Source of the DNA: Candidatus Kryptonium thompsonii
Lineage (GTDB): Bacteria > Bacteroidota > Ignavibacteria > Kryptoniales > Kryptoniaceae
Assembly (NCBI GenBank): GCA_001442925.1
Contig: LDXX01000003.1
Span: 1 to 64,000, forward strand
Direction of reading: 5' to 3'
Length of the DNA stretch: 64,000 nt
Shown: positions 333 to 3,400 of the stretch, piece after piece
How positions within the stretch are numbered: position 1 is the stretch's first letter
Layout: each line of letters opens with the position of its first letter
Program-made: the position numbers and the translations under genes
The notes under the pieces: model-generated
The model's input: the letters and a program-made list of their open reading frames with translations, nothing else
Told to the model about the DNA's origin: nothing
Databases searched by the model: none

Positions 333-364
333 CTTGACAGGAAATCATGATTTTTTTAAATTTT
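333..364 (+). promoter_or_regulatory. Predicted promoter of the heme-sensor kinase gene
   Basis: CTTG at 333-336 (within TTGACA, 334-339) is followed after exactly 20 bases by TAAATTTT at 357-364. As a sigma-70 site this reads TTGACA-N17-TAAATT. Transcription would start near 370, which places the in-frame TTG at 363 upstream of the transcript and leaves a leader of about 75 nt consisting mostly of the AG tract. Confidence 0.6.
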
Positions 365-392
365 GAAAAATTTAAAAACTGCAGGACTATGC

Positions 393-446
393 AGAGAGAG
401 AGAGAGAGAGAGAGAGAGAGAGAGAGAGAGAGAGAGAGAGAGAGAG
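393..446 (+). repeat. (AG)27 dinucleotide microsatellite abutting a start codon
   Basis: Twenty-seven perfect AG units run without interruption up to the ATG at 447. The tract is purine-only and ends at the start codon, so it occupies the place of the ribosome-binding site. In the current frame it would encode alternating Arg-Glu if translation began upstream. Because the unit is 2 bp, each gain or loss of a unit shifts the frame linking an upstream ATG (389) to the kinase. The tract is long for a bacterial dinucleotide repeat and is a candidate contingency locus. Confidence 0.97.
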
Positions 447-3400
447 ATGAAGCAAAAACGAACCAACATAATTTTGTCTGCCAGTATTGTTTTTATTTTA
501 CTTTTTATTGCGGTGGTTATGTTTTATCTGCATGATAGGATTGAAAAGAAAACTGTAAAGGTAAGGGGTAACACCCAAATTTTGACCGCGAAACAAATTG
601 TGAACTCATTCGAAGACTATTTCCAAGCAAGGGGGCGAGGTTTGAAGGTTTTATCATCGTTTGAGTCAATCAAGCGAAGAATCCGAAAGCAAATGGAGGA
701 TGATGTAAATTCTTATTATCGGTATTTAAAACAGGAGTATGTTAGTTCTATTTCTGTCTTTGATGAAAATGGCAGGATTATTTATTCAACATTGAGCGAA
801 GCGATTGGTAAAGATTATAAAAATTCAAGGTTTTGGGAGAAATTGACAAGATCGGGGAAAGATAGCTTGATCCCAATAATTTCATTTGATACAAGCGGTG
901 GGGTTTTATATAAAAAGCCACTTTCGCTTATCATTTTACCTGTTTATGATGGAAATAAGTTTTTAGGTGCAGTGGCTTATGCGATAGAGATTGATTCGCT
1001 TTTAAATTCCTTCATTAAAGTAGTAGATCCTGAACTTAAGCTTTACGATATTTGGATTATAACGCAAGATGAAGTTCTTGTTTTTCATTCCGCTCACCCT
1101 GAGATGATCTTGAGGCGGGCGCAACTTACAGATGAATCTTGTTTGAATTGTCACATTCCACAGGGAAAAAATCTTGGTCCATTTAGTTATATTGATTCAA
1201 TAATTGCGAAGGAGTCTGGCATTATAAGATACAAGTTAAAAAATTATCCTGAGCAACTTGCTAGCTTTTCAAGTTTAAAGATTGCTGGGGAAAAACTGAA
1301 ATTTGTTGTTTCATCACCATTGAAAGAAGTAACAGGAATCATTATATCTGATCTTCGCCTTATTTATGTACTCATCGTGTTGATTATTGTTGTTCTTTTA
1401 GTTTTTGCGTACCTATTTTTGGTGAATATGAGAGAGATAATCCGTGCGGAAGAGGAGAGAAAACAAAGGGAAGAGAAGGAGAAACTACAAAGGCTTTACA
1501 CCTTGCTTTTCCAAAATTCAAATGATGGTGTGTATATCTTTGATTTGGAAGAGGGTAAGTTCATTGAGGCTAATAAAAAATTTCAAGAGATGTTTGGTTA
1601 TACAGTGGACGAGCTTAGAAAAATTGATTTTATGCGATTGGTTGCTCCTGAGTCAAAAGCGATGATTGAGGAAAGAAAGCAAAAGATCAAAAAAGGTGTT
1701 CCAGTTCCATATAGATATACCTTTACGGCGCTTGCTAAAGACGGACGAAAAATTGAGCTTGAAGCAACTGTAAGCTATGTAAGATTTGGCGAGAAAATGT
1801 ATGTTCTTGGAATTTATAGGGATATAAGTGAAACTTTAAGGCAAAAGGAACTTTACGAAAGTTTGTTTGAAAACTTGCCAGTTGGTGTTGTAATTCATCA
1901 AGATGGCAAAATAGTCAAGTGTAATAAAAAGGCTGTGGAGATGGGTGGGGGTAAGGATGAAAGTGATATAATTGGGAAACCTGTTCTTGATTTTGTTCAT
2001 CCGGATTATAGAGAAATTGTGAAAGAAAGGATAGAAAGAATGATTGAGAGAGGTGAATTTGTTCCGCCAGTTGAAGAAAAATTCATACGGCTTGATGGCA
2101 GTATAATTGATGTTGAAGTCAGGGCTTCTAGGATTATGTGGGAAGGAAGACCCGCTGTTCAAGTTGTGGTTTTGGATGTTACCGAAGTAAAGCAACTTCA
2201 AAGAGAATTGGCAGAGCGGTATCAGAAAGAACAAGGGTTAAAGTTGAGATTAGAATCAATTTTGAATAATATTTCAGATGGGATTATGTTTCAAAATGAT
2301 CAGGGTGTAATTGAATTTGTTAACGATGAATTTTGCAAGATTTTAGGATATAGTTCACCAGGCGAGCTGATTGGAAAAACATTTGTACAGTTTCTTGACG
2401 AGATCAAAGACTTGTTTAAGGATAAAGGTGAGATAGATAGAATCAAAAGTTATGTGGATAACAGGGAATTTGTGAAATATTCTGAAGCAAAATTGAAAAA
2501 TGGTAAAATAATAGAAAGGGTTGGAATTCCTGTCTTTGAGCATGGGAAATATGTAGGGCGCATAAGCTTGCTTAGGGATATAACGGAAAGAAAGCAAAAG
2601 GAGAAACAAGTTCTGGAACTTCAAAGATTTGAGATTATTGGACAGCTTGCGAGTGGAATTGCACATGATTTTAACAATGTACTTGGGATTATAAATGGGA
2701 TGCTTGAAATTATTAAAATGAAGACAACGGATAAAAACATTTTAAGTTATGTTGATTCAGCTCTTTCTGCTGTTCAAAGAGGTGGGGAGATATCAAAACG
2801 ACTTTTACAATTTTCAAAGAAAAAGGTTGAAGAGTTTAACCCAATTTCAATTAGAAATCTCGTGCTTGATTGCGTGAAGATACTTGAACATACAACGCCA
2901 AAGAATATAGAGATAAAGACAAGCATTGATGAGGATTATATTATTCTGGGTTCTTACGGCGATTTGCAACAAGTGATTTTAAATCTTGCTTTGAATGCAA
3001 GGGATGCTATGCCAAAGGGTGGGAGGTTGACGATTACAGTTTCTTCTGTAGATAGAGATTTTGTTATGAAAAAATTTGGAAATGCGACTTCAGATACTTA
3101 TGTTGTAATTGTTGTTTCAGATACGGGAGTTGGTATAAGCGATGAAATCAAAGAGAAAATTTTTGAACCGTTTTTCACAACGAAAGAGCCAGGTAAAGGG
3201 ACGGGGCTCGGGCTTTCGATTGTTAAGAATATTGTTACCATTCATGGCGGTTTTGTTGATTTTGAAAGTTTGGTCGGCAAGGGAACATCTTTTTATGTTT
3301 ATCTTCCAGTTCAAATTAGAGAGGAGAAAGTAGTTAAAATAAATCGGGGGGCGGAGAAAATGGTGGAAATTGGGCGTGGCTATAAGGTGCTTGTCATTGA

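Follow-up and report, generated by a model that had tools for sequence, protein, structure and literature searches.

In this study, we identified a perfect AG tract, 27 units long, at the start of a sensor kinase gene in Candidatus Kryptonium thompsonii. The tract is probably a slipped-strand contingency (phase-variation) locus that controls translation of the kinase. The DNA analyzed here (the window) is a stretch of 64,000 nucleotides from contig LDXX01000003.1 (C3 of genome G000), with window position 1 being base 1 of the contig. The features of the region are as follows.

334..362, + strand: promoter, with TTGACA at 334-339, a 17-nt spacer and TAAATT at 357-362
389..535, + strand: upstream open reading frame (ORF) of 48 codons, from ATG 389 as (RE)n through the tract to TGA 533-535
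393..446, + strand: (AG)27 tract, 27 perfect units ending directly against ATG 447
447..3746, + strand: hybrid sensor histidine kinase of 1,099 aa, with Pfam matches and five orthologs in the genus (63-82% identity)
1142..1156, + strand: CLNCH motif, residues 232-236 of the kinase; CxxCH is present in 6/6 orthologs

A preliminary description of this DNA had reported that 27 AG units abut ATG 447, and that an ATG at 389 opens a different frame which closes inside the kinase gene. Both statements were confirmed, and the two ATGs are 58 nt apart. At 27 units, the frame of the upstream ORF differs from that of the kinase. We found no other AG run of at least 6 units in the 2.59-Mb G000 genome. A first-order Markov model built on the dinucleotide composition of the window predicts about 0.2 runs of at least 6 units for this genome, and about 3e-27 runs of at least 27 units. 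The (AG)27 tract is thus a pure repeat far longer than chance would give, placed in the leader or 5' coding part of a gene, as expected of a contingency locus. Its purity is perfect, which suits ongoing slippage.

The gene downstream of the tract encodes an N-terminal membrane anchor, a dCache domain with CxxCH, three PAS domains, HisKA, HATPase and a receiver. The Pfam scores of HisKA, HATPase_c and the receiver exceed their cut-offs, identifying the product as a hybrid sensor histidine kinase, and the dCache domain (PF02743, 66 bits against a cut-off of 45) identifies an extracytoplasmic sensor. Orthologs are present in 5/6 other genomes of the genus. The CxxCH motif varies among the six sequences (the window, L171, L172, L173, L174 and L011) as CLNCH, CKQCH, CYNCH or CLKCH, and comes after HSAHPEM or HSSHPEM in every ortholog. 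This motif suggests a possible covalent haem c site, and its retention in the dCache domain of all six suggests a haem-c-bearing redox or gas sensor.

To describe the effect of unit number, we simulated the reading frames of G000 at different tract lengths. With 25, 28 or 31 units, the frame opened by ATG 389 continues into the kinase (the fused state). At 26 or 29 units, its stop codon overlaps the kinase start as ATGA. With 24, 27 or 30 units, the upstream frame is an overlapping decoy, which at 27 units extends 86 nt beyond the kinase start. In G003, too, the simulated upstream ATG moves through three frames. A change in unit number thus shifts the frame, the simulation concerning frame only. 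The frame arithmetic behind the earlier proposal, in which 28 units fuse the upstream ATG to the kinase, was right, and the third, ATGA-overlap state at 26 or 29 units had been missed.

These frames suggest the following mechanism. A single promoter would produce a short leader in which the first ATG, 20-27 nt past the -10 box, is followed by the AG tract and then by the kinase. Slipped-strand mispairing during replication would alter the number of AG units and shift the first ATG among three frames; we infer that such slippage takes place in living populations. The in-frame state would yield a kinase with an Arg-Glu-rich N-terminal tail before the membrane anchor, and this state would apply to G003 at 9 units, to G001 at 27 units (which has no other good start) and to G000 if it had 25 or 28 units. 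The second frame, reached in G000 with 26 or 29 units, would encode a short peptide whose stop overlaps ATG 447 as ATGA and could allow coupled re-initiation. The third frame (27 units, as assembled), which reads 86 nt past the kinase start, would probably lower initiation there. ATG 447 itself, behind purine-rich repeats with moderate pairing to the 16S tail, may provide a basal kinase level in any state. The expected outcome in a population would be a mixture of cells with high, low or no kinase, and such a mixture may be of benefit.

To place the tract in its genus, we compared seven genomes (G000 and six others) at a threshold of at least 6 AG units. Such runs were found in 3/7 genomes. 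Each of the three has a single run, and in every case it lies at the 5' end of the kinase ortholog. G000 and G001 both have 27 units there, and G003 has 9. G006 has an assembly gap of 459 N, followed by GGAGAGAGAGA-ATG of the kinase. Two genomes are without the tract: G002, the closest relative (82% identity), has ATGCGGGAATAGAG-GTG at the kinase start, and G004 has a longer leader. The tract length therefore differs between related species (27, 27, 9, none in two, and a gap).

The position of the first start codon is conserved as well. The promoter plan TTGACA-N17-TAWWTT was found in 5/5 species with an assembled region (G000, G001, G002, G003 and G004). A promoter had been proposed at 333-364 in G000, and this proposal is backed by the same -35 box and the same spacing in the four other species. 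In G000, G001, G002 and G003, the first ATG lies 20-27 nt past the -10 box, and the tract, or what is left of it, comes next. TTG 363 was considered as an alternative kinase start; it is in frame, but it lies immediately 3' of the -10 box and should therefore be absent from the transcript of the conserved promoter.

Relative to the kinase, the upstream ATG is fused in G003, in frame in G001 and out of frame in G000. The homologous ATGC[AG]G start is fused in frame with the kinase in G003 at 9 units, and in G002 it encodes MRE and then a stop. In G001, no ATG follows the tract, and the one good start of the kinase lies before it, in frame by way of (ER)n. After the tract, G001 offers no start codon before a GTG that lies 22 residues within the conserved protein, in or beyond the membrane anchor. 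In simulation, a change of +/-1 unit in G001 replaces the product of about 1,116 aa with a peptide of 28 to 54 aa. The conserved upstream ATG could in part be inherited sequence without function.

We also examined the gene neighborhood. The kinase lies between an amidohydrolase and citrate synthase genes in G000, G002, G003 and G004, the amidohydrolase of G000 being partial. Both neighbors differ in G001 and G006, where neither amidohydrolase nor citrate synthase flanks the kinase, and AG units are still found at the kinase start. This observation indicates that the tract goes with the kinase gene and not with its surroundings. At the contig start of G001 (L171 1-370), before its kinase promoter, we observed several copies of a GTGAGTT...CTCACCCCC repeat. 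In a tree of six kinase sequences, tract-bearing species are found on either side of the midpoint. Because they occupy both sides, the tract is probably old within the genus and was probably lost or shortened in G002 and G004. As an alternative history for these six sequences, the AG tract may have expanded independently in different species.

Other simple repeats are almost absent from the genus. Among the seven genomes, we found no AC run of at least 7 units, no AT run of at least 8 units and a single G run of 10. This near-absence argues that the AG tract is not general microsatellite noise. The proposal of a phase-variable switch is thus supported by comparison between species: the tract has a shared place, differs in length and frame, follows its gene to new contexts and is unique within the genus.

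Some observations speak against a switch. G002 and G004 manage without a tract, and in G000 ATG 447 follows the tract, so that no tract length fully silences the kinase. In a second reading, which we consider unlikely, a purine-rich ribosome-binding leader drifted into a microsatellite. Its length would vary, but translation would begin at the ATG behind it and yield an unchanged kinase at every length, and the tract would be neutral or a mild tuner. An ATG does follow the tract in G000, G003 and G006, and the kinases of G002 and G004 are presumably functional without one. Furthermore, the predicted pairing of the G000 tract with the anti-Shine-Dalgarno sequence (-5.3 kcal/mol, compared with a median of -2.2 kcal/mol among 39 genes of the window) is better than that of most window genes, although it is moderate and rests on an assumed anti-Shine-Dalgarno sequence, since the 16S gene was not found in the G000 assembly. 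Purine-rich leaders are common (median purine fraction of gene leaders, 0.65), and despite this such a tract is absent from all other genes of the genus. We rejected the idea that AG-rich ribosome-binding sites are a general habit, as AGAGAGAGATG occurs only 0-2 times per genus genome. A neutral tract should also decay at 60-70% protein identity, yet the tracts of G000 and G001 are pure. In addition, G001 has no start after its tract.

The preliminary description had called the tract a ribosome-binding region. Such a role is possible in G000, given the moderate pairing, but is at odds with G001, whose tract is part of the coding sequence. Since the tract is coding in G001 and in frame with the upstream ATG in G003, the shared plan of first ATG, tract and kinase is best read as a frame switch.

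A third reading, which we regard as improbable, is that the tract tunes transcription or mRNA stability by its length, independently of frame, as a triplex-capable GA/TC mirror repeat or a protein-binding purine leader. The pure 54-bp GA/TC tract lies about 24-77 nt past the predicted transcription start, and its length varies among species, which speaks in favor of this reading. However, RNA folding of the leader revealed no length-dependent structure from 25 to 28 units, and control by length would leave the in-frame status of G001 and G003 unexplained.

Finally, we considered an artefact of assembly or amplification, in which the tract or its length would be unreal. The G000 tract lies 392 bp from the contig end, the first gene of the window is a truncated amidohydrolase of which only the last 80 codons are present, and neither bases 1-392 nor the amidohydrolase N-terminus was found elsewhere in the G000 assembly. 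The contig of G001 starts 430 bp upstream of its tract, and G006 has its assembly gap at the same spot. A k-mer size of 55 is commonly used by assemblers, and the alternating runs of G000 and G001 (55 and 54 bp) are close to it. Runs of 54-55 bp near contig ends indicate that the unit counts may be assembly-limited: for G000 a single draft assembly supplies the count, which may be clipped, and the true number may be larger than assembled and vary within the sample. Nevertheless, separate assemblies of different species have AG runs at the same ortholog, and the 9 units of G003 are remote from the ends of a 232-kb contig. Artefacts would not single out one gene, so the length may be wrong but not the tract. 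We therefore consider it highly improbable that the tract is unreal.

To look for similar cases, the search was widened beyond the genus. In a wide scan for (AG)12-ATG, only 21/119 matches precede an ORF of at least 60 aa. These matches were rejected as similar cases, as most are other elements in termite-gut metagenome-assembled genomes (MAGs). In termite-gut Tannerella/Bacteroidales MAGs (L043, L048, L083, L097, L103 and others of L029-L147), long AG tracts directly follow a sigma-54-like promoter (TTTGGCACGATTCTTGC). They terminate in ATG[AG]GCAGGCGTATA; there is no ORF at that ATG, and several copies occur per genome. The Solirubrobacteraceae MAG JANWIP (L073, L075, L077, L101, L106, L145) has many CCGGCCA-(AG)n-ATGCGTCAGTGATGCTGACGCAT copies, in which the AG tract lies beside a hairpin. 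In a survey of the class, 23/391 genomes had runs of at least 10 units with the pattern used, and the kinase locus was the only one in the 391 genomes where a run directly adjoins the start of a long ORF encoded on the AG strand. Elsewhere in the class, other families (L189, L192, L194, L200-L205) often have AG/CT tracts of at least 10 units near ORF 5' ends, with CT on the coding strand, resembling the oipA type described below.

The frame logic proposed here is known from other systems. In Helicobacter pylori, oipA (and babA, sabA) undergo CT-repeat phase variation, in which slipped-strand mispairing shifts the frame between On and Off (PMC10564699). The kinase locus likewise has a dinucleotide tract at the 5' end of the gene, where slippage would shift the frame. 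However, the oipA tract is CT on the coding strand within the signal peptide of an outer-membrane protein. In the kinase gene the coding strand carries AG, and the tract precedes the membrane anchor and lies between or after start codons. The gene encodes a regulatory protein, its genome is non-pathogen-like, and some species have a fallback start. In Mycoplasma mycoides, the type III methyltransferase gene mmyCImod has an AG repeat on the coding strand, which is off with 12 units and in frame and active with 10 (PMC3498834). The tract type, strand and frame logic are the same, but the mmyCImod tract is shorter, lies within the methyltransferase coding region, has no second start codon after it and belongs to another gene family.

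The lic loci of Haemophilus influenzae have CAAT repeats after several ATGs in different frames, giving more than two expression levels. They share with the kinase locus start codons before the repeat and multiple frame-dependent states; they differ in being tetranucleotide repeats of LPS genes, whereas here the repeat is a dinucleotide with a start after the tract. Two-component genes can also be phase-variable: in Bordetella bvgS and H. pylori HP0165, slippage in homopolymer tracts alters a sensor kinase and, through it, the regulon. Those tracts are homopolymers, in contrast to the dinucleotide tract at the start codon described here. Our literature search revealed no histidine kinase gene with a comparable AG leader. 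An AG tract between the start codons of a sensor kinase, in a genus otherwise without such repeats, was likewise absent from the literature searched.

Contingency loci are known mainly from host-adapted pathogens, usually on surface structures or DNA methyltransferases. Here, the sole such tract of the genome is tied, genus-wide, to one environmental sensor kinase with a conserved CxxCH. We tentatively propose, with slightly less than even confidence, that a genus of probably free-living bacteria places its sole dinucleotide contingency locus on one sensor kinase. The start of this kinase would have three states (fused, ATGA-coupled or decoy), set by unit number modulo 3, and cells would thereby bet-hedge a complete signalling response. 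The idea is easily tested, since unit number and kinase frame can be counted directly in long-read metagenomes. If true, bet-hedging by mutation would extend to the perception of signals itself.
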